Virus record (IMG/VR): IMGVR_UViG_3300033141_001863
Location: 1 to 41,421 of that record
Direction: 5' to 3' (one strand)
Length of the DNA: 41,421 nucleotides
Source: a virus
Part shown: piece after piece, positions 4,393 to 39,231 of the stretch
Position numbering within the stretch: the first letter of the stretch is position 1
Layout: each line of letters begins with the position of its first letter
Notes under the pieces: model-generated
Told to the model about the DNA's origin: nothing
What the model saw: the letters and a program-made list of their open reading frames with translations, nothing else
Database searches by the model: none
Position numbers and translations under genes: made by a program

Positions 4393-4635
4393 CTACGGCA
4401 AGCGCAGCGGCTCGCCGTACTTGGCATGGTGCAACTCCGCGTAGCGTGCGAGATACTCGCACCGCGAGCACGGCGCTAGCTCCGCGTGCACCTTTTCGCG
4501 GATGTCATCGTCCATATGCTCAACGACGACCTTCCAGTCCGATGCGTCTTGCCACCTGTTCTCCTTGGCCTCTGGCGGGCACACATCGTGGGCAGCACAA
4601 TCCGCACAGTTGAGCTTCTCGCTTTTGTTGTTCAT
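4393..4635 (-). CDS. Small cysteine-rich phage protein, 80 aa
   Basis: Unrecognised 80-residue protein with six cysteines in two groups: 'NCADCAAHDVCPPE' near the N-terminus and 'CSRCEYLARY' near residue 56. This suggests one zinc-binding or disulfide-stabilised fold. The middle is helical and acidic. It starts with MNNKS from the repeated start cassette (site AAGGGAGTAAGCC) and ends inside the next copy of that cassette, in a different frame from its neighbour. About 28 bp separate it from the gene downstream. Confidence 0.6.
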   Translation of the reverse strand: MNNKSEKLNCADCAAHDVCPPEAKENRWQDASDWKVVVEHMDDDIREKVHAELAPCSRCEYLARYAELHHAKYGEPLRLP

Positions 4636-6060: not shown

Positions 6061-6306
6061 TCATGCTTGCTCATTGATCTGCTCGATGAGGCTCACGCCC
6101 GTTTCCTGCTCGTAAGCCTCGCAGATTGCGGCGACCAAGGCAGGTGTGTCCTCCAGCAGGATGTTCACGCCCTTCTTCGTGGGCAGCCAATCTCCATCGC
6201 GCTGCCACACGTGTCGCACGTCCATCCGAAGGTCGCCGTTGTACTGGCTGACCTTCACTCGGACATTTCCCTTCTCCAGGTCTACGTTCGGCTCATACTC
6301 GGACAT
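6061..6306 (-). CDS. PC4/p15-like single-strand DNA-binding protein, 81 aa
   Basis: The middle of this 81-residue protein matches the PC4/YdbC-type fold: strands 'GNVRVKVSQYNGDLRMDVRHVW', a turn 'RDGDWLPTKKGVNILLED', and a helix 'TPALVAAICEAYEQE'. The basic 'LPTKKGV' turn is the hallmark of this family, which binds single-stranded or melted DNA as dimers. In an operon with YqaJ and RecT it may replace an SSB (inference). ATG at 6306 is preceded by GGAAAGGAGACGCAGAG. The second hairpin element lies just upstream. Confidence 0.7.
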   Translation of the reverse strand: MSEYEPNVDLEKGNVRVKVSQYNGDLRMDVRHVWQRDGDWLPTKKGVNILLEDTPALVAAICEAYEQETGVSLIEQINEQA

Positions 6307-24610: not shown

Positions 24611-26341
24611 CTACGACACGTTGTTCTTGTGCAGAGGTCGGAAGTCCGCAACCGGCGCACAATGGTAAGTGCTTGAGAAGCGGAAGCCGAACAGCCGCAC
24701 CTTGAAGCGCAGCTCGTCGTTGGTGAACATCGAGCCAGCGCGCTCATCCTCAGCGGAGAACAGCTCCGGCGTCCTGCGGCCGCGCAGCCAGATGAGATAG
24801 ATCGCGGGGAACTGCGCGGGGTCAGCCACCAGCGCCCAGTCATTCGCATCTGTCCAGGCCGGAACCACAATCGTCTCAAGCGCCCCCTGGAGAATGTTGC
24901 GGGTCTGCAATTCGCCGCCACTCGTCGCTCCACCGGACTGACTCGGAACCATCTCCGACATCACGATTTGCTTTGCGGTCGCCTCCAGGTCAACGGGCAC
25001 CAAGAGGTAGCGAGGTGTGATGTTCAAGCGCCGGCCGGCACCAAGCGGCTGATCTGTCTGCTTGCGCATGGCCGTCCGCGCAGCGATTACGCCCGAATAT
25101 CCAAGCCCAGTCGTTAGCAGATTGGCATGGCCGCCGGCAGAGGTGACAGCCGTGGCATTGAAGAGAGCACCGGTGTCCGCCAGAACGGGACCGGCCGATG
25201 AGTTGACCGTGAACACATTGGCCACGAGATCGCTGACCTCGTTGTACCAGGCATTCGCCAGGCGGGAAGGAAGCGACCGAATCTTCGCCAGCTTATCCCT
25301 AAGCAGCGTCTCCAGCGTGACGCCGATGTAGCCGCCGCGCTTGAAGTACGAGCTGGTCTCCTCCTCATCTTCCCAGTCGAGCTCCAGGTATGTGTCACCC
25401 TGCGACATGGCATTCAGGCCGCCAATGCCGAACACGCGCACGAGCGTCGCATCATCGAGCGTGGCCACATCCTCTTGGCGAACGATCGGGTCCCACCATG
25501 CTTCACGCACGGAGTAATCCGCCGCCAGCAGCAGGTTGACGGTATTCTTCACGATGGAGCTGACGGTGCTGGTCGTGATGTTCGCCTCAGACAGGCGCTC
25601 GGGAGAAATCTTGCCATCCAGAGCATAGTCATAGCCGCCCATGAGACCGACATACCACTCAGACAGGCGACCGAACTCCGGAACGTGGAAGGACTTCTCG
25701 GCATAGCGCTTGAAGGATTCGCTGAACCGCTGAGGCGCATAGTGATCAATCTCTGCCTGCGGCTTGCCCGCATTCTCCTTGGCCTTTGCGACGAGGTCTG
25801 CAAAGCGAGAAGAACCGGCCACGAGCCTCATCAAAGACATCTCCCACTCGTCCCTTGAGACGCGGGCTTGCGTGCCGAGATTCACGCCATCCGGCACGAC
25901 GATACCATCATCTGCACCTTCAGCGATTTCTGCACGCATCTCCTTGATGATTTCCTCCAACTCCTTGCTCTCGAAAACCCGACCCGCAAATTGCTTGCGG
26001 ATGAGCTTCTGGACATAGGACGGGAGGCCGCTGGCCTTGAGCTTGGTATCAAGCTCAGCGGTGCATGCTTCGACACGAGCGGCTTCGGCCATTCGCTTGA
26101 CCTCATCCGCGGCTTTCTTGGCTTCCTTGACCAACTCCTCTACATCCTCCTTTTTCAAGCCTTCCTCCTCGTGCTCAGTCTCAGGGTCCGGCTGCTCGCC
26201 CTCCTGGACATCTTCTTCGGTCTCCTCGGTCTCCGGCTCTTCAGCAACAGCAGCCTCCAGAGCCTCCACCCGCTCCATAATCGGCTGAAGCTTCTCGTCG
26301 AGCGTCGAGCCGATTTTCTCCAGCAACTCCTGCATCTCCAT
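24611..26341 (-). other. Internal start for scaffold-capsid product (576 aa) inside the fusion
   Basis: ATG at 26341 (residue Met354) is preceded by AAGGAG nine bases upstream and opens exactly at the boundary between the protease domain and the coiled coil that starts MEMQELLEKIGSTLDEKL. Lambda C/Nu3 uses the same trick for its scaffold. If used, the capsid precursor could be made in excess of the protease. Confidence 0.55.
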
Positions 26342-27400
26342 AGCACTTTTCTCCTTGTTCTCTGAAATCTTCGCCGCGACAAGCCTCAGAAAGCGGCCGC
26401 CCGCAGCCGGCTCTGCAACCACATCCACGCTCAGCGCATCGGTGATTTTGTGGACCGCCAGGTAGCTTTGGCCATCGATCTCCTTTTCCTCGCCCTCTCC
26501 AACGGCGTCGATAGATAGACCAATCTCGCTCAGGACATCCGACTCCGCCGCATTCAGCAGCTTTGTCCTCAATCCCTCATCAATCACCTTGAGCGTCCCG
26601 ACGATCGCCTTCTTCTTTTCATCCCAGGCGACATCCACAATCACTCCGACCAATTCGTTTGCGACCGAGCGCATGCCCTGCTTCTCGGCAAATTCCTCAT
26701 CGGTGAGATGATTGTCGTAGACCTTGACCCTCTCAAAGAGAGGGGCCGCTTCCTCCAGCGCACTGGCACTGTATAGTCTGCCGTTGGCACTGCGAATGTA
26801 CGTCTCGCCATCCGCCTCGATGATGTCGTCCTTCGTGTCCGGCCCGATGATGGTCACAAGCCACTGCTTGCCTTCCTTCTTCTTGGCCTCCGCCACCTGG
26901 AAGAATGCCAGCCTTTCGGTCAGCGGCACCCACTGGCTCTCCAGCTCGACCTGCTTCCATTCTTCAAATGGCGCAAACACGACTTCATCATCCTTCAGCT
27001 CGAATGGCACATCGTAATTCTTGTCCTTGTAGCGGACAACGGCGTGGGTCTCGTACACCTCGCTCACCCAAGCCTCAAACTCCAATCCACTGCCAAACTC
27101 TTGGTGGAAAGCGGAGTGCACCTTCGCAACCATATCCTCGATGCTCTCTTCGCCGTTCATCAGGGTTTCGATCTCCCGCTTCGGCCTTTTATTCATCAAC
27201 CCTCCTTCGCTGTGCGCCTCTTTCTTGCCCACGACCCCATAGGCCATCTTGAATGCCTTCTCCTCGCAGTCCTTCCCGTCCTCCTGCTGACAGCGCTCCA
27301 AGGCACCATTGAAAACCGCAACCCACTGGGAGCGCTTTTTCGCCGACATCTTCTTGACGGCATCCGGCAGATTTGGGTCGTCCTTGCCGCTGTAAGGCAT
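24611..27400 (-). CDS. Fused ChaB-like / prohead protease / scaffold / major capsid protein, 929 aa
   Basis: One reading frame covers what are usually two or three genes. Residues 1-60: ChaB-like ('LPDAVKKMSAKKRSQWVAVFN'). About 76-160: accessory domain. About 165-345: prohead protease with candidate catalytic His231 ('VYDNHLT') and Ser296 ('SEIGLSIDA'), then 'SVDVVAEPAAGG'. About 354-530: charged coiled-coil scaffold/delta-like region. About 540-929: HK97-fold capsid protein resembling Mu gpT-like heads ('YLIWLRGRRTPELFSAEDE'). Internal in-frame ATGs with ribosome sites: 27196 (AAGGAGGG) and 26341 (AAGGAG). Self-cleavage of the fusion, internal initiation, or both, could release the capsid subunit. 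Confidence 0.87.
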   Translation of the reverse strand: MPYSGKDDPNLPDAVKKMSAKKRSQWVAVFNGALERCQQEDGKDCEEKAFKMAYGVVGKKEAHSEGGLMNKRPKREIETLMNGEESIEDMVAKVHSAFHQEFGSGLEFEAWVSEVYETHAVVRYKDKNYDVPFELKDDEVVFAPFEEWKQVELESQWVPLTERLAFFQVAEAKKKEGKQWLVTIIGPDTKDDIIEADGETYIRSANGRLYSASALEEAAPLFERVKVYDNHLTDEEFAEKQGMRSVANELVGVIVDVAWDEKKKAIVGTLKVIDEGLRTKLLNAAESDVLSEIGLSIDAVGEGEEKEIDGQSYLAVHKITDALSVDVVAEPAAGGRFLRLVAAKISENKEKSAMEMQELLEKIGSTLDEKLQPIMERVEALEAAVAEEPETEETEEDVQEGEQPDPETEHEEEGLKKEDVEELVKEAKKAADEVKRMAEAARVEACTAELDTKLKASGLPSYVQKLIRKQFAGRVFESKELEEIIKEMRAEIAEGADDGIVVPDGVNLGTQARVSRDEWEMSLMRLVAGSSRFADLVAKAKENAGKPQAEIDHYAPQRFSESFKRYAEKSFHVPEFGRLSEWYVGLMGGYDYALDGKISPERLSEANITTSTVSSIVKNTVNLLLAADYSVREAWWDPIVRQEDVATLDDATLVRVFGIGGLNAMSQGDTYLELDWEDEEETSSYFKRGGYIGVTLETLLRDKLAKIRSLPSRLANAWYNEVSDLVANVFTVNSSAGPVLADTGALFNATAVTSAGGHANLLTTGLGYSGVIAARTAMRKQTDQPLGAGRRLNITPRYLLVPVDLEATAKQIVMSEMVPSQSGGATSGGELQTRNILQGALETIVVPAWTDANDWALVADPAQFPAIYLIWLRGRRTPELFSAEDERAGSMFTNDELRFKVRLFGFRFSSTYHCAPVADFRPLHKNNVS

Positions 27401-28435: not shown

Positions 28436-29364
28436 GCCAGCCCTCTCTCCTCAATGATGGCCTGCACCTCATCATCTAGGCCGCCCCATAGCTCGCTCGT
28501 GTCCCCCCATTCTTCTTTATGGGCGACCACTACACAACGGCAATTCACCCTCTCCTTTGCCGGCAATCCTGGGTCGCCTGGGAACATCGCAGGACATCCG
28601 CCAACCATAAACGGCTCATCCATCTTCACAATCTGGCCGTGAGCTTCCAAATGGCTGTCCCTGGTGCGTGTATCGCCGGTCGCCATCCATGCCCGCATCA
28701 GGTTCTCAACGCCCATCTCCGACGCCCACTTCATCATGTTCAATCCTGCAAGGTTCTGAGCAGCCATAAGCTCCGTTCTGAGAATTCGTTCCGCCTTAGC
28801 GCTTATGCCGGTCGTTCCAAGCTCTCGGAATGCGCCATAGCTTCGCAGGCCAACGATGTTGCTGATATCCCGCATGGCATCGAATGGGCTGCGGCCACCC
28901 AGATATGCAGAGTAGACCACATCCTTTATCCAGGTCCTCATCTCCTGCGTGACCTGGGTAATGCGCTCGAAGGTGAACGCTTCATGCACCGCTCTGAGGG
29001 AGGCAAATCCGACAGGCTCCGCCAGCTTGAAGCCGGTCGCCCCCTCAAAATACTCCATCCCGAACTCTATCTGGACCCTGGTCATTTCTTCTCCCAGCGC
29101 CCATCGCTCCTGATAAGTAGAGCGCACATCATTCGTTATATCGGTGGCGGCATCGATCAGCGAAGCATCGACCGAGGCGAGCATGGCCTGGATTTCCGCA
29201 GGCGACAATCCGGCCAATTCCGCCGAGGTTATGAGTCTATGCAGCTCCTTGCGGGCATCCGTCAACCTTCTGATGAGCCGCCTTCTTGCCTCATCATCGA
29301 GCGCCTGAGCCTTGCGGACCAGGCGCTCAATCTGCCGAGAAAATCGATCGGCCGCTGATGGCAT
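28432..29364 (-). CDS. MuF-like minor head protein, 310 aa
   Basis: Predicted minor head morphogenesis protein (Mu F/SPP1 gp7 family), bound to the portal and possibly injected. Helical N-terminal two thirds; then the family's C-terminal signature: 'RTELMAAQNLAGLNMMKWA' and 'WMATGDTRTRDSHLEAHGQIV' with 'GLPAKERVNCRCVV' (the N-C-R-C box). Follows the portal gene by a few bases, as in many phages. Length typical. Confidence 0.92.
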   Translation of the reverse strand: MPSAADRFSRQIERLVRKAQALDDEARRRLIRRLTDARKELHRLITSAELAGLSPAEIQAMLASVDASLIDAATDITNDVRSTYQERWALGEEMTRVQIEFGMEYFEGATGFKLAEPVGFASLRAVHEAFTFERITQVTQEMRTWIKDVVYSAYLGGRSPFDAMRDISNIVGLRSYGAFRELGTTGISAKAERILRTELMAAQNLAGLNMMKWASEMGVENLMRAWMATGDTRTRDSHLEAHGQIVKMDEPFMVGGCPAMFPGDPGLPAKERVNCRCVVVAHKEEWGDTSELWGGLDDEVQAIIEERGLA

Positions 29365-29367
29365 TCT

Positions 29368-31173
29368 CTATGCCGCCTCCTGTTTCGACTCCTGGCCTTC
29401 GGTTTCGGCTTCTTCCTCGGTCTCAGGCTCCTCCTGGCCAAGCTCATCCAGCAAGTCCTTCAGCGCATTCGCCTCCATCTCCTCTTTCTCATGATAGGCC
29501 AGCGTCTTTTCCATGTCTATCTCAACGCCGAACATCTTCACGATAGCGGCGATCAGCTCTATGGCCTTGTCCATTGTAATCATCTTGGCCATAAAAAGCC
29601 GCAGGACCACATTCACCACATTCATAAACGCCTGGCTGACCCGCAGCATATCCTTCGAGCTGATATGCGACATCGAGACCTCAAACGCATCCCTGGCCTT
29701 CACCATTTCGACATCATCCGAGCTTCCGGGAACCTCCACTTCCTCCGGCAGAAGGCCAAGCGCCACCAGCACATCAATCTGATACTGGCAAATCTGCTTG
29801 AACATATTCTGCACGAATTTTTGCCGCCGTGACAGCATCTTGAAGGTCGGCTCCCCCATCTCGGCCGCCGTAGCCCTATTGGTATATCCGCCCTCTGCCA
29901 ACCAATGTTCGGGAATGCGCATGCCGCCGGCAATGAAAATCCTAAGCGCCCTGATCAGCGTCTGAAGTTCCGGCGTATGCAGGCTTGGGTTCACTGCATT
30001 CAGCTTCACTCTTTCGTTGTGGGCATAGACGCTTGTCGCCCTGGCCCGGCCTACCCTGGCCGCATGGACGCTCAAATTCAATTCGGGGTCCGATGCAGTC
30101 TCACTGCCGCCCTCCACGGTGACATCCCACACAAAACGCTTTAGAGCTTCCACATGCTCCGCGCCATCGAAGAAAAGCTGATCATAGCGATCAAGCCAAT
30201 CAATCATTGGTAGCAGGTCGGGCCTGCCTCGAATGCCTGTGCTGAGCTTGTTCACCTGGAACAGAAAGCATTCGCCTTTATATTCCTGTCCTTCCAAAAC
30301 CTTCTCGGCCTTTTGAAGCTGCGCCCGACCTGTGCCATCATCAGCCTCTACGAAACGCCACTCCTGGCCTTTCTTAAGCCGGCGATTGAGCCGGGCGTGA
30401 AGCTGTCGCCTTTCGGCTTCACTCAAGCGATCGTTGCCGCTGTCCTCTGAAATCATTCGCCATGCTTCCAGGTCCTTATAGCCCTGGAGCGGGCCGTCTT
30501 TTCCCTCCGACCTGATCAGCTTGTAGATGGGACCATTATCCAGGCTGCCGGTTTCTCCCTTCAGCCTGATTGCGATTACATCCCTGCGGTTTTTCGGGTT
30601 TGTGATGATAGCCGCTATCTGGCTTGGGTCCACAGGGGCCAGCCTGAGCCGGCCGTCGCCCTTCATGCCAAGCTGCTCACCGTCCCTGACATATGCGATG
30701 AACAACTGCTCTCCGAAAAGCGACAGCTCCCTTACGATGCTCTCCGCCAGCTCGCCATCGAGGTCATTCACTGGGTCATTCCAGAATGCATCGAGCGCTT
30801 CGGCCACCTCATCATTCTTCGCCGAAATCGTGATGCCATCGCCCAGCACATAATCTACAATAATCTCCGTGATCGCCTTGGCAAGAGGGTTCGTATTCCA
30901 TAGGCGATACGCCGCTTCAATTGCCCTCTCCTGGCTGATTGAGGACAAATCACGCGGCGCATGTACGGTACTGCGGTACCCCCTGCTAATGGGCTTGCCG
31001 TCAGAAGTGAACATGGGCGGCTCATCATCGCCCGCCCATTGGATGCCTTCCTTCATTCCATCTGCGAAGGCCCTATGGCTTGCCTCTTTGACGGCCTGCC
31101 TTACTGCTTCTTCGAGCGTATCTCCCGCGATGAGGCGGATGAGGCGCTCCCTGAAACCCGCTCTCTCTTGCAT
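29368..31173 (-). CDS. Portal protein, 601 aa
   Basis: Dodecameric ring at the capsid vertex for packaging and ejection. Recognisable regions: 'LWNTNPLAKAITEIIVDYVLGDG', 'ALDAFWNDPVNDLDGELAESIVRELSLFGEQLFIAY' and 'RLRLAPVDPSQIAAIITNPKN' as in SPP1/Mu-type portals, then a clip/stem region and an acidic C-terminal tail 'EEPETEEEAETEGQESKQ'. ATG at 31173 has GGGAGGAACG and lies 73 bp inside the preceding small gene in another frame. Between terminase and MuF, the standard position. Confidence 0.92.
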   Translation of the reverse strand: MQERAGFRERLIRLIAGDTLEEAVRQAVKEASHRAFADGMKEGIQWAGDDEPPMFTSDGKPISRGYRSTVHAPRDLSSISQERAIEAAYRLWNTNPLAKAITEIIVDYVLGDGITISAKNDEVAEALDAFWNDPVNDLDGELAESIVRELSLFGEQLFIAYVRDGEQLGMKGDGRLRLAPVDPSQIAAIITNPKNRRDVIAIRLKGETGSLDNGPIYKLIRSEGKDGPLQGYKDLEAWRMISEDSGNDRLSEAERRQLHARLNRRLKKGQEWRFVEADDGTGRAQLQKAEKVLEGQEYKGECFLFQVNKLSTGIRGRPDLLPMIDWLDRYDQLFFDGAEHVEALKRFVWDVTVEGGSETASDPELNLSVHAARVGRARATSVYAHNERVKLNAVNPSLHTPELQTLIRALRIFIAGGMRIPEHWLAEGGYTNRATAAEMGEPTFKMLSRRQKFVQNMFKQICQYQIDVLVALGLLPEEVEVPGSSDDVEMVKARDAFEVSMSHISSKDMLRVSQAFMNVVNVVLRLFMAKMITMDKAIELIAAIVKMFGVEIDMEKTLAYHEKEEMEANALKDLLDELGQEEPETEEEAETEGQESKQEAA

Positions 31174-31415
31174 CGTTCCTCCCTGATATGGGCGTCCCGA
31201 CCGCCATTTTTCGTGCTACATGCCGCGCAGAGGTAAACATCAGGCGCGTAAATTGTGCCGCAGAGCGGGCAACGCCAGCCCTCTCTCACCTGCCTCGGCG
31301 GGCCATCATCCACAACATTATGATTATTCTCGGCTAATGGGCACCATGGCTTGTGAACTATCCCGCCGCTCGTCAATTCTGCCCCGCAGTAATAGCAGCT
31401 CGAAATCCAAAGCAT
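31101..31415 (-). CDS. Double zinc-ribbon protein, 104 aa
   Basis: Unrecognised protein with two Cys clusters: 'CYYCGAELTSGGIVHKPWC' near the N-terminus and 'WRCPLCGTIYAPDVYLCAAC' at about 50-70, then a basic, Ser-rich tail. ATG at 31415 follows TAGGAGTGGCT. The tail overlaps the portal start. A promoter (31465-31437) lies just upstream. Zinc ribbons of this kind often serve as nucleic-acid or protein adaptors. Confidence 0.58.
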   Translation of the reverse strand: MLWISSCYYCGAELTSGGIVHKPWCPLAENNHNVVDDGPPRQVREGWRCPLCGTIYAPDVYLCAACSTKNGGRDAHIREERCKRERVSGSASSASSREIRSKKQ

Positions 31416-31436
31416 AGCCACTCCTAACCGCCTTGC

Positions 31437-31465
31437 AGTATAGCATCTGAGCACATCTCAATCAA
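31437..31465 (-). promoter_or_regulatory. Candidate promoter upstream of the portal genes
   Basis: Minus-strand TTGATT (31465-31460), 17-base spacer, TATACT (31442-31437). It overlaps the 3' end of the methyltransferase gene and would drive the zinc-ribbon, portal and MuF genes. Confidence 0.5.
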
Positions 31466-32093
31466 CGCCAGACCACCTTCCAACCATCACCTTATCATGT
31501 ATCCCAGGCCATGAGTGCAGTGGGATGACGGGCTGATCTGCCAGCAGGCCGAAACCCCGCCAGAACTTATGCGCCGGACCGTAACCGTTGCGCTCCCCTA
31601 TGTAGACGATGGGCTTTTCGCTGCCCCATGCCTCTGCAAAATCGAGCACCTGCTCATCACCCACAGGCGGCCAAACGATTAGCAGGATGTCCGAGGCTGG
31701 CCCGAATGATTGAATGGCCTTGATGCCGTCCATCTCGATGACGTTTGTCGGTTCTTCCATCAGATCATGGATGGCCATCCACTCCCTGAGCATGGCATCA
31801 GTCGCCACTATGCTCACGCCGCATTCCTCAAGCGCCTTGGCGACCCAGCCTCCGCCTGCCATCACCTCCAGCACCGTGCGCCTGCCTATCCACTCCGCCA
31901 GCTTGCTGGTCCACACCTTCTCAATGACTGTCCAGCAGCCACGCCTGAACAGCTGCTCTCTTGCCTTCCTGACCATTTCGAACCTATGGGCACTCATGTC
32001 CGCCCAGTCGCCGCCTATGCTTGTCCCCTGGGGCGGCTCCGCTGGAATGCGGCCCGCTTCTATCTCCTTCAGATATTCCTCAAGCCGCATCAT
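31458..32093 (-). CDS. SAM-dependent methyltransferase-like protein, 211 aa
   Basis: Class I methyltransferase fold by pattern: glycine-rich SAM loop 'VLEVMAGGGWVAKALEE' (residues 74-90), acidic residue after strand 2 ('VSIVATDA'), and 'DILLIVWPPVGDEQ' with WPP at 141-143 in the place of the D/N-P-P-Y motif. Target unknown; the WPP form is unlike classic DNA adenine methyltransferases, so protein, glycan or lipid is possible. Starts ATGATG at 32093, overlapping the upstream gene by 14 bp. The glycan genes nearby suggest a link. Confidence 0.68.
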   Translation of the reverse strand: MMRLEEYLKEIEAGRIPAEPPQGTSIGGDWADMSAHRFEMVRKAREQLFRRGCWTVIEKVWTSKLAEWIGRRTVLEVMAGGGWVAKALEECGVSIVATDAMLREWMAIHDLMEEPTNVIEMDGIKAIQSFGPASDILLIVWPPVGDEQVLDFAEAWGSEKPIVYIGERNGYGPAHKFWRGFGLLADQPVIPLHSWPGIHDKVMVGRWSGVD

Positions 32094-32295
32094 CTTGAGC
32101 CATTATCTCCGTCATCAACTCGCTGACATGAGAGGCGATGAGAGTCTCCTGCTCCTTCCAAAAGCGCAATTCCATCACCATCTTCTCGCTCCATTCAGAC
32201 ACCTTGGCCAGCTGCGCCAGAATCATCAGCATGAAAAGGCAATGAAACACGAGAACTATAAAGATAGCGGCTACGATAATCGTCAATCCATTCAT
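32080..32295 (-). CDS. Small membrane-anchored protein, 71 aa
   Basis: N-terminal membrane segment 'LTIIVAAIFIVLVFHCLFMLMILAQL' (4-29) and a charged helical tail. ATG at 32295 has AAAGGTGATGGCAG. It overlaps the sulfotransferase C-terminus by 101 bp in another frame. Single-span proteins of this kind can tether enzymes to the membrane, but no partner is shown by sequence. Confidence 0.5.
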   Translation of the reverse strand: MNGLTIIVAAIFIVLVFHCLFMLMILAQLAKVSEWSEKMVMELRFWKEQETLIASHVSELMTEIMAQDDAA

Positions 32296-33118
32296 CTGCC
32301 ATCACCTTTCTGAGCCGTTCAAGGAACTGCTCATCTGTTCGTTCCAGAGGTTCATTGAATCCCAGGGCATCCAGCCAATCCCCCAGCTTTTTCTCCGCCA
32401 GCGCTCTCAGGGACGGCCCCATTTCATCCTTCCATCCGCCAGGCTTCCCGCGCCTGAAGGTCGGGCTGGCCTCGGGGCTGACGGAATCTATCATATAGCT
32501 CACAAGCTCGCTACTCCAATTCATGCCCGTTCGCTTACGCAGGTATCCCAGGATTGCCAGGCAGGACGTGACAGGATTGATCACGAGGTCCCTGTATTGA
32601 ATGGGCAGCACCCAGTCCTGTGCCAGCCAATATGCATATTGCTCCCATCTCTCTCTAAGCGAAGTGTATCCCGCGAGGCCAGTGATGACAGCCCTTACTC
32701 TGTCCTCGTGCGTCGGCAGCTTCTGGAACATGCGCTTGAAGGGATGTCTCCACCTTGAATCATCGGGGTTGCCAGCATGATAAGCCTCACTAATGGCCAC
32801 GTCTCGCAGGTCCCTGTGCAGAAAGATGACCGCCCATCCTTGCTCCCTTATCCATTGGAGCACCGGCACGCTGGCTGCGAGATGTCCTGCGACCATGCTC
32901 CCATCTTCGACATGATGGAGGTCATCCATGACTTTCTCTAGCGGTCTGACCGCCGGTCCCCATCCGCCATTCTCAAAGATGCTCAGGTACCTTTCCGCGG
33001 GCTGCCCTGGCAGAGAGGCAAAGCCTCTCGCCGGTTCCGCCAGCGGCCTGACCATCTGAGCAATCAGATGAGTACCCGATTTGGGAAAGCAGTTCAGCAA
33101 TATTGGCCTATGCGGCAT
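32195..33118 (-). CDS. PAPS-dependent sulfotransferase, 307 aa
   Basis: Predicted transfer of sulfate from PAPS to a hydroxyl or amine. Family motifs are complete: the 5'-phosphosulfate loop 'CFPKSGTHLI' (Pro12-Lys-Ser-Gly-Thr16), 'MVAGHL' (about 76-80), the 3'-phosphate motif 'LHRDLRDVAISEAYH' (Arg102, Ser110), and the C-terminal 'FRRGKPGGWKDE' (221-232). Length is normal. It stands between the terminase and portal genes, four bases from the terminase. The acceptor is unknown; sugars made by the upstream cassette are candidates. Confidence 0.9.
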   Translation of the reverse strand: MPHRPILLNCFPKSGTHLIAQMVRPLAEPARGFASLPGQPAERYLSIFENGGWGPAVRPLEKVMDDLHHVEDGSMVAGHLAASVPVLQWIREQGWAVIFLHRDLRDVAISEAYHAGNPDDSRWRHPFKRMFQKLPTHEDRVRAVITGLAGYTSLRERWEQYAYWLAQDWVLPIQYRDLVINPVTSCLAILGYLRKRTGMNWSSELVSYMIDSVSPEASPTFRRGKPGGWKDEMGPSLRALAEKKLGDWLDALGFNEPLERTDEQFLERLRKVMADEWIDDYRSRYLYSSRVSLPFHADDSGAAGQGV

Positions 33119-33121
33119 CCT

Positions 33122-34483
33122 TCACCTCCAGCTTGAGTGCTCCCTACTCCACACATCCTGCCTGGCCTTCTCCTCCAGCATGACCCCTTGAGCCTGCACT
33201 GCATCGCTGATAATCGTGACAGCGGCCCTGAGTGCATCCAGGCGATGGAATTTGCGCTTGTCTTGAATCTGGTTCGTCGGCTGACCTGTCTTGTCTATCT
33301 TGCGTTTATAACTCTCCAGCTCTGCCAGCAGGCCGCGGCATGAGCGGAATACCCTGAAGCGATCTGATTTAATAAGCCCAATCACCCGACTGATTCCCTC
33401 TTCCACTCCGCCAATCTTGGGAGCATCAACATAAATGCCGGCTGCTCTCCAATCCGCCCTGCTCTGTATTTCGGACGGCGAGCCGCCAACGTACTCTATG
33501 CTGCCCTCTGGGTCCTCCAGCACATCAGCGTCGTGCTCCTTTGTCCTCTCGACATGCTCAGGAGTTGAGACATTGCCGCCAAGGTACTCATCATAGACAT
33601 ACCAGCGATTATCCTGCGGGTTGAGGGCGAGCCATATCTGCGCTGTGTTCGCTCCGCCGAAGTCAATCCCGCACACTCTATCCCAATAGGTCGGTATCAA
33701 GAATGAGTCCACGATCATCTTCGATGGGTCAAAGGCATTGTAAATAAGGCCCGCCGGCCTGGTGAACTCTCCCAGGTATCGCATCTTGAACAGCCAATCT
33801 GGGAGCGTTCGCCTGGCCCTCTCAAACTCTTCTGGCGAGAACGCCGGGTTCAGAATGTTGGGGAACTGCACCACCTCATAATCTGGGTCGCCCATGAGCC
33901 AACGGTCGTACCACTCCGTCTTGAGCCATCCTGTATTATCCGGCGTTGTCGTGCCCAGCACCCTTCCCTGGTAGAGCGCCGTGCGGAGCTGGACATCCAC
34001 CCAATCGTTCAAGTCCCACTCATCATCTCCGACCTCATCGAGCCATGCAGCCCTGGCCGTAGCCGCCTGAATGCCGCCGGTCCCGCCGATCGATAGCAGA
34101 ATGATGCGGCCCCACATTCTATCTGTGGCCCTCCTCGCCCAAAAGCGGCCCTTTGGGTCTTTCAACTCAATCACCCTGGCCCCAGGCCAATACCTGCCTA
34201 TCCTGAGCAGGTCGCAGAACACCTCCTGCATGGCGGGCAGCATCTTGAGATTGAATAGAGGGAAGCTCGTCGTAACCGCCAGGTAGTCGTTATCTCCCCC
34301 TTCGGGGTCTGCGGTCCTGTTGATTTCTCTCGCAAACCACCAGGGGCCGAAGGAAGTCTTGCCGCTCTGCGCTCCCGACAGCATGAGCACAAACCTCGCC
34401 TTGGCGGTCCAGACGAGGTACTGTCCCTTGTGCGGTCTCAGCTCGATACGGCCATCGCTGCTGAGCGAGTAAATTCGTTTCAT
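33122..34483 (-). CDS. terL: Terminase large subunit, 453 aa
   Basis: Packaging motor ATPase and nuclease. Walker A 'GAQSGKTS' (37-44), Walker B 'AAWLDE' (145-150), coupling motif 'GTTTP' (177-181), RNase H-like nuclease with 'CGIDFGG' (Asp274) and 'FHRLDALRAAV' (Asp416). Overlaps the small subunit stop as ATGA. Length typical for siphoviruses. Type of packaging (headful or cohesive) cannot be decided here; apparent circular permutation is compatible with headful. Confidence 0.95.
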   Translation of the reverse strand: MKRIYSLSSDGRIELRPHKGQYLVWTAKARFVLMLSGAQSGKTSFGPWWFAREINRTADPEGGDNDYLAVTTSFPLFNLKMLPAMQEVFCDLLRIGRYWPGARVIELKDPKGRFWARRATDRMWGRIILLSIGGTGGIQAATARAAWLDEVGDDEWDLNDWVDVQLRTALYQGRVLGTTTPDNTGWLKTEWYDRWLMGDPDYEVVQFPNILNPAFSPEEFERARRTLPDWLFKMRYLGEFTRPAGLIYNAFDPSKMIVDSFLIPTYWDRVCGIDFGGANTAQIWLALNPQDNRWYVYDEYLGGNVSTPEHVERTKEHDADVLEDPEGSIEYVGGSPSEIQSRADWRAAGIYVDAPKIGGVEEGISRVIGLIKSDRFRVFRSCRGLLAELESYKRKIDKTGQPTNQIQDKRKFHRLDALRAAVTIISDAVQAQGVMLEEKARQDVWSREHSSWR

Positions 34484-34959
34484 TCAATTTTCTTAGATTT
34501 GGCTCTCTTGCGCGGTTTCTTGGGGCCATTCGATTTCCTTGCGCCTGCCGCCCTTCGCTTGGCGCTTTTGCGGGTCGATTTCTTCTCAATCTCTTCTGGC
34601 GGAACCACGCTAATCTCTTTCACCGGAATTGCCAGCACCCCAACGCCACCGCTCTCCTCAATTGCCTTGCCGAACTCTGAGCGCCAGCGTGGTCTGCCGC
34701 GGTTTATCAGGAAAAAGCGCTGTGCCTGGACGTTGCCGGACAGGGCGGTGACGAACAGGGCGTCCTCCACAAGCTCATTTCTTGAATCCAGGGCCTCATC
34801 GACGCGCTTCCTATACTCATCATCCTTCATGCGATAAGCGTACTCTGTCTGTCTTGCAACCTTTGCCAGCTCACATGCAGAGCTAATCGTATGGCCATTC
34901 AGGATTGCGTCCACAATGAGGTCCTGAACCGCCTTGGTCATCTTTGGTCGCCTTCCCAT
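34480..34959 (-). CDS. terS: Terminase small subunit, 159 aa
   Basis: DNA-recognition subunit of the packaging terminase. The N-terminal helix-turn-helix ('VQDLIVDAILNGHTISSACELAKVARQTEYAYR') is followed by 'DDEYRKRVDEALDSRNELVEDALFVTALSGNVQAQRFFLINRGRPRW', the usual oligomerisation region. The C-terminal 35 residues are strongly basic (KKSTRKSAKRRAAG and more). ATG at 34959 has GGGGAGGCCGT. Confidence 0.88.
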   Translation of the reverse strand: MGRRPKMTKAVQDLIVDAILNGHTISSACELAKVARQTEYAYRMKDDEYRKRVDEALDSRNELVEDALFVTALSGNVQAQRFFLINRGRPRWRSEFGKAIEESGGVGVLAIPVKEISVVPPEEIEKKSTRKSAKRRAAGARKSNGPKKPRKRAKSKKIE

Positions 34960-34998
34960 ACGGCCTCCCCATTAAGTCCATGTCCATATTGACTGATT

Positions 34999-35658
34999 TT
35001 ATTCAGATGCCAACCACTCTTCGAACGCCTCCATCAGTCGTTCTTTGAGCATAGGCAGCTGCTTTTTGGCCGATCGCTTGCTCATGTTCAGGCGAATGAC
35101 TGCCACAGGCGCATCTTCTATCCTGAAGCAGACAACCGCCTGATTCATATCATCCAGCAGCACTTCTGCCACCTTTCCCGCTATCTTGAGTGCCATTTCT
35201 CTTATCCTGGCCCTGCGCTGAGGCGTGCTATCTCCAATCGGCTTCGGCTGCTGCGGTATCAACCTGGTGAGCGGATATTTGAAAAGGTCCAGCTCTCTTA
35301 CGTCCAGCTCATTCTTTCTGATGATACGCTTCACCCTTGAGACACTCAATCCGCCACGCACTGTATTGAGATTGTTGACGAGATTGAACTCCTCCTCCTT
35401 GCTGAGCTTGCCCTCCAGCACAATAGCATCAATTTCATCATGGCCGAGCTGAGACCAGGCTTCTACTCGATGGTGGCCTGCGATGATGCGATATCGAGAG
35501 CCTTGCTTAAGCATCACTGGAAGCTCAAGCATCCCGTGACTTTTCAATTCTTCTCTGAGCCTGTTGAATGTCGCCCCATCCTCCTCATTTGCACTCAGAG
35601 GGTTATGATGCACATGCGCCAGCGGAATGGATTGCACGCCCACTCTTTTGACAGCCAT
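34999..35658 (-). CDS. ParB/Srx-fold protein next to terminase, 219 aa
   Basis: N-terminal ParB-like domain: 'VGVQSIPLAHVHHNPLSAN', 'RLREELKSHGMLELPVMLK', and box 'AGHHRVEAWSQLGHDEIDAIV' (60-80). The C-terminal half ('LSVSRVKRIIRKNELDVRELDL') resembles the helical DNA-binding part. Such proteins are frequent just before terS and may aid packaging or act as nucleases. Its ATG shares one base with the glycosyltransferase stop (TAATG). Second ParB-like gene of the window, only distantly similar to the first. Confidence 0.85.
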   Translation of the reverse strand: MAVKRVGVQSIPLAHVHHNPLSANEEDGATFNRLREELKSHGMLELPVMLKQGSRYRIIAGHHRVEAWSQLGHDEIDAIVLEGKLSKEEEFNLVNNLNTVRGGLSVSRVKRIIRKNELDVRELDLFKYPLTRLIPQQPKPIGDSTPQRRARIREMALKIAGKVAEVLLDDMNQAVVCFRIEDAPVAVIRLNMSKRSAKKQLPMLKERLMEAFEEWLASE

Positions 35659-36881
35659 TACAGCGATCTCCTGTCTCCTCTTTCGCTCAGGACCCTTATT
35701 CTATCGCCCAGCTTTATTGTATAGTCTCTCCACACCTCCGAAACAAGGTCGGCAAAATTCAGCGGCGCGCCGAACCTGCGTTTCATCCATCGCCTGAGCT
35801 TCTTCGAGTAGCTGGGGTAATTCTGCAGAGCATCAAGCACTTTCTCCGCCGCCTCGCCGACCGAATCGAATCGCAAGGGCCAATCCGCGGGAATTACATC
35901 GTGGGTCCATGGCCTATTCCAGACAACGGGAACGCATCCCTGGCCCATCAATTCGATGAAACCCGCCGGTAGACCTTCCGCGTGACTTGTAATCAGCAGA
36001 ACCTTTGCTTTCCTTGTGAGTGCTCGATAGATTTCAGGCGGCTCACCCGCATGTACCCGCAGATTTTCGATGGCCAGCATAGATTTATGTTCCGCGCTCA
36101 TCTGACCCGCCTCTCTGCTAAGAAACACCTCTTTGCGGATATTTGGAAGAAGCGCAAAGACCTCAGCGGCCATGCTTGGGTTCTTCATCTTGCTGGCCCT
36201 TCCAGACCATACGACAACGTCCTCCTTGCCGCGCCATGGCCTGCGATCCTGCCAGCTATAGCTCTTGGCCCTTCGAATGCGGGGAAAAAGAGGGTGGCCG
36301 GCGGCGGCCATGAGCTTACGCATTATGCGTTCCTCGTTGGCGCTGTCGAGAGTGAACACCCAAAATGTTTCGCTCCTTGCCATAGACGCCAGCATGAACT
36401 CTGCCGCCTCAGGGGTCACATAATCCCAAAGCTCCTCTGGCGCTTTCGCCATCACAGCAATCACGGGCGGCAAAGGTCGTCTCCAAAGCGCCATCCCATG
36501 CCCATATATGGCCCAGGCCGAGGCAAGGCCGTTTGTGATATAGAGGTCTGCCGTCAGCCCCTCCTCTTGATACATCGCGCATGTTATGTGCGTCTGTATC
36601 TGGAATATATGGTCAAGCTTGCTGGCCGCCGTCTCATGAGGGACCACATAGCTATTGCGCCACCCCTCCACATCCAGGCAATTGGTATATAGGCTGCTCT
36701 CAATCTTCGGATTGGCAGCAAGCAAGTCGTCCTGCATCACCCTTAGATGATGCACCACCATGCTTTCGTTTTGCCTGGCCCCGCCCGCCACCCAAACAAC
36801 TCTCCTGAGCGGATTGTCGGAGGCCATGATCTCGTACCAATTGCTTAGATGAACGTCCGCCTCTCTCTTACCTTCCTCCAT
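35658..36881 (-). CDS. GT-B glycosyltransferase (GT4-like), 407 aa
   Basis: C-terminal half shows the GT4 donor-binding layout: 'DVVVWSGRASKMKNPSMAAEVFALLPN' and 'LLITSHAEGLPAGFIELMGQGCVPVVWNR' with the E-G-x-P-x-x-x-x-E-x-x motif, ending in 'LRRWMKRRFGAPLNFADLVSEVW'. N-terminal half is an acceptor domain starting 'RRVVWVAGGARQNESMVVHHL'. Start could be 36881 or Met19 at 36827; neither has a strong ribosome site, and 36881 overlaps the SGNH gene by 37 bp. Donor sugar unknown, perhaps that made by the adjacent decarboxylase. Confidence 0.8.
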   Translation of the reverse strand: MEEGKREADVHLSNWYEIMASDNPLRRVVWVAGGARQNESMVVHHLRVMQDDLLAANPKIESSLYTNCLDVEGWRNSYVVPHETAASKLDHIFQIQTHITCAMYQEEGLTADLYITNGLASAWAIYGHGMALWRRPLPPVIAVMAKAPEELWDYVTPEAAEFMLASMARSETFWVFTLDSANEERIMRKLMAAAGHPLFPRIRRAKSYSWQDRRPWRGKEDVVVWSGRASKMKNPSMAAEVFALLPNIRKEVFLSREAGQMSAEHKSMLAIENLRVHAGEPPEIYRALTRKAKVLLITSHAEGLPAGFIELMGQGCVPVVWNRPWTHDVIPADWPLRFDSVGEAAEKVLDALQNYPSYSKKLRRWMKRRFGAPLNFADLVSEVWRDYTIKLGDRIRVLSERGDRRSL

Positions 36882-37411
36882 GCTCTACTCGCTATCTCCA
36901 TCGCGCCTTCCGGCGTAAGATGAATGCCGTCGGTGAATTTGCGGATGTTTTCGCATTCGACGATCGCATCGCTCTGGCCGCTCATAAGCTCATGAAGTCC
37001 CCGATTGTATTCCTTGATGCGGTCCAGCGCCTTTCTCGTGTAGCCTGGTGAACCGAAGCCCAGCGGCAGGGGAATCGTCATCACATAGGGGCGCTTCCCC
37101 AAAACATTACACCACTCGACGATTAGACCAACATTTCCGAGATAAAGCTGCAGGGGCGTATTGATCTCATCCTTGGCATCATTCGTTCCGATTAGAACAA
37201 AGACCTCCTTCGCTGGGGAGGCCCGCAGTTTATCGAGGGCCAGGCGAACAAGCTGCGAGCTCGTACGGCCATCCTTCGCCTCGATGTCAGGAAGCACTAC
37301 CGCCTCTTTCTTGGCAATCTGAGCCATGTATATAGGCCAGCACAATCCGAATGGGTCTCTGCTTCCAGCTGTCAGACTATCTCCAAGGAAAAGCATCTCA
37401 ATCCAGTTCAT
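36845..37411 (-). CDS. SGNH/GDSL-family hydrolase, 188 aa
   Basis: Esterase or carbohydrate deacetylase-type enzyme. Block I 'FLGDSLTAG' (Ser12), block II Gly48 ('KDGRTSS'), block III 'LIGTNDAKD' (Gly75, Asn77), block V 'DGIHLTPEG' (Asp161, His164): all catalytic and oxyanion residues present. No signal peptide, so cytoplasmic. In sugar operons these enzymes add or remove acetyl groups. Start overlaps the upstream gene as ATGA. Confidence 0.88.
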   Translation of the reverse strand: MNWIEMLFLGDSLTAGSRDPFGLCWPIYMAQIAKKEAVVLPDIEAKDGRTSSQLVRLALDKLRASPAKEVFVLIGTNDAKDEINTPLQLYLGNVGLIVEWCNVLGKRPYVMTIPLPLGFGSPGYTRKALDRIKEYNRGLHELMSGQSDAIVECENIRKFTDGIHLTPEGAMEIASRAWRKVRERRTFI

Positions 37412-38433
37412 GACTCACTCCATTCAATGATATCTTCTGCGTCGTGTTCCTTCGAGAGCATGCTCTGAAACTCCGCCTCCCTGTCCTTCTCTTCCCAATA
37501 CTGAATAACTTTCTCGATGCCATCATCGACGGTTATCTTTGGCTCCCAACGCAGCAGCTTAGCGGCCCTACTGATATCGGGCCGCCTTCGGCTTATTGGG
37601 TCCCATTTGCTCATGTCGTAGTCGATGGGCACCGACAGCTTGCCCGCAATGATTTCGGCCACCTCGCTGATCATCAATTCCAAATGGCCGCCGATGTTGA
37701 TAGGACCCTGGAACTGATGCTCCATCGCCGCCATTATGCCTCTCACGCAGTCATCGACATATAGCAGCGTCCTTGTCGTTGAACCCATGCCCCATATTGT
37801 CACCTTGCCCTTGTAAATTGCATCCCGCACCATGCTTGGAACGAGACGGCCATTTGCCCTCATCCTTGGGCCAAAGGTGTTGAAGATGCGAACAACGGCG
37901 CTCATCACATTTTTCTCTATGCGATATGTATTGAGCATTGTCTCGGCTGCTCGCTTGCCCTCGTCATATCCCCCCCTTGCTCCCATGTGATCGAAGCGGC
38001 CCGGCTCCTCCTCGGTGGTCGGCACATTTTCGGCATTGCCATAAACCTCGCTGGATGATGCGAACAGCAGCTTGGTCCTCTGTTCGCCCTCAATTTCCAT
38101 CCTGGCCAGGACATATCGCACGACTTCTTCAATTTGGCGGATTGAAACAACGAACGCCTCCGCCGGCCATTTTATGAAATCAGTCGCCGATACGACACCG
38201 GCCATCATGTAAATCTTGTCCCAGTGCCGATCGGCATTCAGGCTCCAGGAACGGCGGATAACATTCTCCACCGAAACGCTGAAAGCATCCGACGCCCGAA
38301 GCGCTGCGATATTGTCCGGGTAGCAATAGACCATTGAATCGATGACATGGACGGAATCGCCCTTAGAGATATGAGCCTCCGCCAGATGGCTTCCGATGAA
38401 ACCGGCCCCGCCGATAATGAGTATTTCTTCCAT
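37408..38433 (-). CDS. NAD-dependent sugar-nucleotide epimerase/decarboxylase (UXS-like), 341 aa
   Basis: Extended short-chain dehydrogenase. NAD loop 'GGAGFIGSHLAE' (8-19), catalytic Ser/Thr region 'FASSSEVYG' (124-132), Y-x-x-x-K 'GYDEGKRAAE' (Tyr156, Lys160), and 'RIFNTFGPRMRANGRLVP' (182-199). The YDEGKR and FNTFGPRM forms are those of UDP-glucuronate decarboxylase (UDP-xylose synthase) and relatives, so conversion of UDP-glucuronate to UDP-xylose is the best guess; 4,6-dehydratase or epimerase is possible. First gene after the terminator at 38451-38472, with CAGGAGGCGAA before the ATG. Confidence 0.85.
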   Translation of the reverse strand: MEEILIIGGAGFIGSHLAEAHISKGDSVHVIDSMVYCYPDNIAALRASDAFSVSVENVIRRSWSLNADRHWDKIYMMAGVVSATDFIKWPAEAFVVSIRQIEEVVRYVLARMEIEGEQRTKLLFASSSEVYGNAENVPTTEEEPGRFDHMGARGGYDEGKRAAETMLNTYRIEKNVMSAVVRIFNTFGPRMRANGRLVPSMVRDAIYKGKVTIWGMGSTTRTLLYVDDCVRGIMAAMEHQFQGPINIGGHLELMISEVAEIIAGKLSVPIDYDMSKWDPISRRRPDISRAAKLLRWEPKITVDDGIEKVIQYWEEKDREAEFQSMLSKEHDAEDIIEWSES

Positions 38434-38529: not shown

Positions 38530-39165
38530 TTAGAACAGATTGATTTGTGGATCATCTTCGGTCGGTCTGTAACTGGGTTCTCTGGCACTTTTTCCATCTG
38601 CCGTGTGATAGCCGTCCCCTAGCTCAGGGTCCCAGCCTCGGTACTTGGAGGGGAAGGCTTCGTTCTCTAGTTTAGCACCTTCCAACCAAAAGTGCTCCAC
38701 CCCTCGGCCCATCTTCCGGCCCCTTGCCGTATGCATGTCCAGGGCGTAGTCGGGAACCTCACGCCGACCCTTTACACGCCGCATCCGAAGGACATGATTT
38801 GTGAAGTCGTCCGCCTCGCGGGATTTGGGGGACCGTGCCATCTCAAGGATAACGTATCCCAGCATGCAGAGGTCATACTTGTCATGCTTGGGGCGTTTTT
38901 TGGCCGATGGGTCCTTGAGCAGCGTGAGGATGTGATTGCAGAGATTGACGACAGTGTTCACGAGCTGATGATTGGCCGCGCCGATGTCCTCCGTTGCGAT
39001 GACAACGAGCCGCTTCCAGAGGTAGGCGTGATAGCCGGCCAGGGCGAACTCCAGCGCCCAGTACATCGCCTCCTCCTCCAGGCCCCTGCGGATTGACTTC
39101 TGAAGGGCCGAGGCCGCCTCCCCGAAGTCGTGGCCGAATTTGGTGACTTGCTGATATGCTGCCAT
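38530..39165 (-). CDS. Stand-alone RarA/MgsA C-terminal-like protein, 211 aa
   Basis: Resembles the C-terminal, non-ATPase half of RarA/MgsA/WRNIP1 replication-repair factors. Matching run: 'SALQKSIRRGLEEEAMYWALEFALAG' and 'LWKRLVVIATEDIGAANHQLVN' (19-70), then 'VILEMARSPKSREAD' and 'EVPDYALDM' later. The AAA+ part is absent. It may act on host or phage forks or clamp loader by mimicry (inference). It is expressed from its own strong promoter. ATG at 39165 follows GGAAGGAGCAGAA. Confidence 0.8.
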   Translation of the reverse strand: MAAYQQVTKFGHDFGEAASALQKSIRRGLEEEAMYWALEFALAGYHAYLWKRLVVIATEDIGAANHQLVNTVVNLCNHILTLLKDPSAKKRPKHDKYDLCMLGYVILEMARSPKSREADDFTNHVLRMRRVKGRREVPDYALDMHTARGRKMGRGVEHFWLEGAKLENEAFPSKYRGWDPELGDGYHTADGKSAREPSYRPTEDDPQINLF

Positions 39166-39202: not shown

Positions 39203-39231
39203 ATTATATACTACTCGCCCCTTTACGTCAA
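39203..39231 (-). promoter_or_regulatory. Strong sigma70-type promoter for the RarA-like gene
   Basis: Minus-strand TTGACG (39231-39226), 17-base spacer, TATAAT (39208-39203), followed by TAA and TCTAGGACAA, a motif shared with the early promoter at 6711-6682. The -35 box touches the 3' end of the HTH regulator gene. Confidence 0.82.

Follow-up and report, generated by a model that had tools for sequence, protein, structure and literature searches.

A probable PAPS-dependent sulfotransferase gene recurs in the head module of phages, apparently apart from the sugar genes of the same locus

Mycobacteriophages such as Che8, Corndog and Myrna decorate their heads and tails with the help of their own glycosyltransferases, according to the passages on Freeman 2023 in PMC11256854 and PMC12363180. 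Sulfotransferases of unclear function occur in OM43 phages and in Synechococcus phage S-SRM01 (PMC10580990), and sulfotransferase and epimerase genes are among the AMGs of Patescibacteria viruses (PMC12285232). The locus analysed here resembles the mycobacteriophage systems, as far as those passages describe them, in its phage-encoded glycosyltransferase and in the GT4 genes that stand behind a capsid-like gene in related phages. It differs from them in having genes for a predicted sulfotransferase (ST) and a UDP-glucuronate decarboxylase-like enzyme (UXS), and a GT4 without a match in INPHARED. A phage-borne protein of the ST family is what it shares with the OM43 phages, S-SRM01 and the Patescibacteria viruses, but the OM43-phage enzymes belong to Sulfotransfer_3 (PMC10580990), whereas the present one belongs to Sulfotransfer_1, recurs beside the portal gene and has no INPHARED match. 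A preliminary description of the locus had called sulfation especially rare among phage decoration systems; the STs of PMC10580990 and the viral ST clade in IMG/VR presented below qualify that claim.

The window, by which we mean the whole stretch of DNA analysed, is an entire IMG/VR virus record, 41,421 bases long; megablast against INPHARED gave no match. The five enzyme genes considered here (below, the cassette) all lie on the minus strand, interspersed with the genes for ParB, TerS and TerL, and the portal gene lies beyond. UXS (37408..38433), a 341-aa SDR, is followed on that strand by a 188-aa SGNH/GDSL hydrolase (36845..37411), a 407-aa GT4-type glycosyltransferase (35658..36881) and a ParB_N-domain protein (34999..35658; PF02195, 7.5e-6), which over residues 4–117 also matched phrog_498, a DNA methyltransferase family. 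Then come the terminase small subunit, TerS (34480..34959; phrog_4102 and phrog_309), the large subunit, TerL (33122..34483; PF03237, phrog_2 and phrog_5653), the 307-aa ST (32195..33118), a 211-aa class-I SAM methyltransferase-like protein, MT (31458..32093), and the portal protein (29368..31173), which is 47–55% identical to the portals of ST-bearing contigs and serves as the marker of the ST-carrying module. A 71-aa ORF on the same strand (32080..32295) overlaps both ST and MT and has one strong N-terminal membrane segment (maximum KD19, 3.01); it matched no family in Pfam or PHROGs and may be a gene.

Neighbouring genes from UXS to the portal overlap or stand no more than 39 bases apart, and 96 bases separate UXS from the gene before it, which encodes a protein with a RarA/MgsA C-terminal domain (38530..39165, minus strand; PF12002, 1.1e-10). 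This is the first gene past a promoter-like TTGACG-17-TATAAT (39203..39231, minus strand), recognised by consensus match only, with 11/12 matches. From the short gaps and this site, and in spite of the 96 bases before UXS, we infer that the genes from UXS to the portal are carried on one transcript, and late transcription may begin at the site. When the region was shuffled 200 times, the longest stop-free run averaged 179 codons and reached 294 at most, a maximum that TerL, GT4, UXS and ST all exceed. Every cassette gene except MT has curated-family support. Another IMG/VR contig, L002, matches the window at 100% identity across 29137–38155, so the contiguity of the genes is not an assembly artefact. 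The cassette is close to the core genes in codon usage, ST and GT4 being at the low end. Neither a signal peptide nor a membrane segment was predicted in any of the five enzymes (UXS, SGNH, GT4, ST and MT), and all are predicted to be cytosolic. The five genes of the preliminary description are thus confirmed at these coordinates, intermixed with late head genes. Elsewhere on the minus strand of the window, an 80-aa ORF (4393–4635) matched the anti-CRISPR AcrIC5 (PF22147, 1.1e-13; 51.6 bits against a cut-off of 27), and an 81-aa ORF (6061–6306) has a PC4 transcriptional coactivator domain (6.5e-11).

The ST scored 34.8 bits for Sulfotransfer_1 (PF00685, 1.5e-8), for which the cut-off is 22, and fell under the cut-off for the Sulfotransfer_3 family PF13469. 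The PAPS motifs that had been described as complete were all found: the 5'-phosphosulfate loop PKSGTxxL as PKSGTHL at residues 12–18, the 3'-phosphate motif RxxRDxxxS as RDLRDVAIS, RxGxxGxWK as RRGKPGGWK, and the SULT-type histidine in GHL. By this full motif set, the protein is most likely a member of the PAPS-dependent sulfotransferase family. Its best PDB match, a weak one, was Teg14, an antibiotic sulfotransferase. Enzymes of PF00685 have a broad substrate range that includes small molecules and proteins. When the window ST and an ST of the L239 type were run by tblastn against INPHARED, neither gave a match.

A profile made from the window ST and its cellular relatives was then used on viral records and found 18 further loci. 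The viral STs are 31–48% identical to the window ST overall (48% for L238/L239, 38–40% for L240–L243 and 33–35% for L244–L247), and the cellular STs compared are more distant, at 26–34%. In the tree, the window ST forms a pair with that of L239 (0.89) within a viral clade (SH-like support 0.91), apart from the Chloroflexota and Priestia STs. By these comparisons, the ST belongs to a phage ST clade distinct from those STs of Chloroflexota and Bacillota that were included. In L238–L243, the ST gene stands immediately upstream of a portal gene 52–53% identical to that of the window, and MuF follows the portal wherever the contig extends that far. In L246/L247, it lies near a capsid fusion gene 50% identical to the window's. 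A 929-aa gene of the window (24611–27400, minus strand) has relatives of about 50–55% in L246, L258, L262 and L263 and likely encodes a fusion of prohead protease and major capsid protein.

A portal profile seeded with the ST-bearing contigs found 14 further contigs, 13 of which had enough upstream DNA to test for ST. In this sample, biased by the way the profile was built, an ST gene stands between TerL and portal in seven of the 13 (L240–L243, L259, L261 and L262), and the arrangement is present in four of eight lineages after near-identical contigs had been collapsed, with GC of 0.51–0.69. Half of the lineages lack the ST, which is therefore not essential. L262 has another type of TerL, with no tblastn match to the window TerL, so the ST–portal pair was kept across a change of terminase. 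Across the relatives, ST identity and portal identity drop broadly in parallel. BLAST with the window proteins found no window-like UXS, GT4, SGNH or MT beside ST in the flanks of the portal relatives; these contigs are partial, and sugar genes may lie beyond the flanks. From the flanks compared, the ST appears not to be part of the sugar cassette but to recur in the head module apart from it. A first scan of genome contigs with the portal gave no match, and the only portal relative in INPHARED, that of Microcystis phage Mae-JY22 (29.5%), leaves no room for an ST gene between it and the next gene upstream. What is new here is the ST clade in the head module, of which we found no description in the papers searched.

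The sugar genes were named correctly in the preliminary description, all three having complete catalytic motifs and a Pfam family match. UXS (PF01370, 1.9e-35) has the extended-SDR motifs GxxGxxG, SxE and YxxxK, as GGAGFIGSH, SSSEVYG and YDEGK, together with NTFGPRM. Its best PDB match was human UXS1 (4gll/2b69), at 165 bits, whereas the next family reached 81, and by PDB comparison its closest characterised relative is a UXS, not RmlB or GalE; no equivalog cut-off was reached in NCBIfam. UXS-type genes are common in IMG/VR (at least 120 in a pattern scan). Phage and bacterial UXS proteins have the Rossmann, SxE, YxxxK and NTFGPRM motifs in common with the window UXS, but among the matches listed the viral ones are only about 24–42%, mostly 31–38%, identical to it, and its best PDB matches are to the human enzyme. 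In 50 UXS-bearing viral records, an ST rose above the cut-off in five, always more than 20 kb from UXS; the two genes are not a linked pair in these records. The UXS record of Aphanizomenon phage Yong-DA (ON073792.1, 13800–26705) was dropped as a precedent because that stretch resembles a bacterial O-antigen cluster.

The SGNH enzyme, which lacks a signal peptide, has all three triad blocks, Ser (GDS), Asn (GxND, as GTND) and His (DxxH, as DGIH), and scored 48.3 bits for PF13472 (2.2e-12; cut-off 32.9). Since this is a family of hydrolases, the acylation role first proposed for it has to be corrected. GT4 has a Glycos_transf_1 C-terminal domain (PF00534, 1.8e-7) and the E-x7-E motif (EGLPAGFIE); AlphaFold from the single sequence gave a pLDDT of 35, and the matches in Chloroflexota were weak and partial. 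Neither GT4 nor SGNH had a tblastn match in INPHARED. Among the window ORFs, we recognised no gene for a PAPS synthase, a UDP-glucose dehydrogenase or a flippase, and donors and acceptors would therefore be host-derived. In MT, the class-I motif (VLEVMAGGGW) and the WPP of the preliminary description were found, but no known glycan-MT family: the protein matched no Pfam family and nothing meaningful in the PDB, and its match was limited to phrog_19090 (4.6e-13). Its AlphaFold model, also from the single sequence, had a pLDDT of 42; both this model and that of GT4 were too poor to use. Relatives of MT occur in Klebsiella phage Miami (27%, annotated as a SAM-dependent methyltransferase), Streptococcus phage GXN1 and an unannotated jumbo phage; no sugar genes were seen beside those of Miami and the jumbo phage in the short stretches read.

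Co-occurrence of the five genes was surveyed in 43 further virus records with a TerL relative. ST (PF00685), Epimerase/UXS-type (PF01370), SGNH (PF13472) and phrog_19090 were each present in 0/43 of these records, which are partial, so that absence from a record does not show a virus without the gene; GT4 (PF00534) was present in five. A DNA methylase (PF01555) occupies the slot upstream of TerL in L005, L007 and L022. L016 has a NeuB-family gene (nonulosonic acid synthase; 532–1590, 1.5e-83) just upstream of its terminase genes. This varied content marks the slot as an accessory site. In four of the relatives (L048, L049, L050 and L052), a GT4 lies directly behind a capsid-like gene; in L050, it is followed by a class-I methyltransferase and has glycosyltransferase B736L as its best PDB match. 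None of these GT4s, nor the L050 methyltransferase, showed BLAST likeness to the window GT4 or MT.

Glycan genes thus seem to recur in the TerL clade as different, independently gained sets. The preliminary description had proposed one system in which a single glycan is built, acylated, sulfated and methylated. As to linkage of the set, the survey found what that description had itself named as refuting, independent gain and loss without co-occurrence, in these partial records: ST, UXS-type, SGNH and MT genes were not found in the 43 records, and ST occurs in portal relatives without the others beside it. The broader theme of glycan genes in a late operon held up better, as shown by NeuB in L016 and the GT4s of L048–L050 and L052, but not as a linked set; the polysaccharide clusters that hold cellular ST relatives also agree with the preliminary description. 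Overall, the sequences compared support the one-system proposal in part.

ST homologs were found in 17/301 Chloroflexota genomes, usually as two copies and often near each other (best match 8e-27, 34%), in 0/251 Armatimonadota genomes and in 0/287 genomes from the phylum to which a Peregrinibacteria MAG belongs. In the one annotated example (L219), the neighbours include NeuB, cytidylyltransferases, a PMT-like protein, Capsule_synth and GT2. The eight loci fetched (L219–L226) show a common Chloroflexota cluster of NeuB, cytidylyltransferase, PMT-like and Capsule_synth genes with one or two STs, most of the genes being present in 8/8. On a Priestia plasmid, the ST is located among glycosyltransferases and epimerases. 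PKSGTH, RDPRDV and RxGKxGxW of the paired Chloroflexota STs align with the phage ST at 26–34% identity, but these STs form a clade separate from the viral ones. The cellular relatives, through their association with polysaccharide clusters, point to glycan sulfation as a possible activity of ST. A TerL profile found 26 loci in bacterial genomes, 30–54% identical and mostly in Chloroflexota (Caldilineae, Anaerolineae and Herpetosiphon) and Armatimonadota, which suggests a host of one of these types.

The explanation we prefer, to which we give about an even chance of being right, has two layers. The first would be the ST, an old member of the head module, inherited together with the portal gene and produced during head building. 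It would draw on host PAPS to sulfate a target that is synthesised or becomes exposed late in infection; a virion or host-surface glycan is the likeliest target, and a protein or small molecule is less likely. The second layer, UXS–SGNH–GT4, would be a separate insertion into the accessory slot upstream of ParB–TerS, recent and unique to this phage, and would contribute a pentose-type sugar step. From host UDP-glucuronate, UXS would make UDP-xylose (or the 4-keto form); GT4 would attach a sugar to an acceptor in the cytoplasm, and an acyl group would be removed by the SGNH enzyme. Both layers might act on surface or virion glycans. Synteny of ST with the portal was observed, and no linkage was observed between the layers. 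Several points weigh against this two-layer explanation: small molecules and proteins are also substrates of PF00685 enzymes, and the best PDB match is the weak one to Teg14; the window ST and its nearest viral relative (L239) are only 48% identical; the ST-bearing contigs are partial, and their flanks were tested with the window proteins rather than with family models; the ST is missing from half of the portal lineages; and the sample is biased by a portal profile that was seeded with ST-bearing contigs. A bolder version, in which the ST family sulfates the virion itself, at a head or portal tyrosine or on a capsid glycan, as a regular and heritable part of making heads in several phage lineages, is put forward tentatively and as rather unlikely. 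To our knowledge, virion sulfation has not been described in tailed phages.

The enzymes could instead alter surface polysaccharide precursors in the host cytoplasm, masking receptors and blocking superinfection. Phages are known to convert O-antigen, and both the predicted cytosolic location of the enzymes and the capsule-type clusters in which host ST relatives reside fit such a role. In the window, however, we recognised no gene for a membrane GT or a flippase and none like gtrA/B, and receptor masking by genes placed beside terminase and portal would come late; we consider this explanation unlikely. Quite unlikely, in our view, is a single pathway of all five enzymes that builds, deacylates or acylates, sulfates and methylates one glycan. 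The common operon with its tight overlaps favours it, and all the families are plausible for glycan work, but the ST recurs without the others beside it, the others are missing from the TerL relatives, the STs of UXS-bearing viral records are distant from UXS, and MT relatives lack adjacent sugar genes in the stretches read. Slightly less likely still is that the genes are unrelated morons, in which case ST would have a small molecule or lipid as its substrate, MT would modify nucleic acid or protein, and the sugar genes would serve metabolism. The substrate range of PF00685, which is generally known to be broad, and the separate gain and loss of genes among TerL relatives would agree with that, but the synteny of ST with the head module exceeds what is expected of random cargo, and its cellular relatives lie in glycan clusters. 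Hypermodification of phage DNA by ParB, MT and the glycosyltransferase, for which the DNA methylase upstream of TerL in relatives might speak, is highly improbable and was rejected: no modified-base synthesis gene was recognised among the window ORFs, MT has no DNA-methylase Pfam match, and GT4 with UXS is typical of surface-glycan work.

The reading of the locus as one cassette is corrected by these results, in that adjacent decoration genes can have separate histories. The ST clade in the head module of half of the portal lineages turns what looked like a one-off oddity into a testable question, namely what gets sulfated during head building. Sulfation of the virion or the envelope, if confirmed, would mean that phages of Chloroflexota-type hosts shield their particles or control superinfection by a chemistry new to these tasks.
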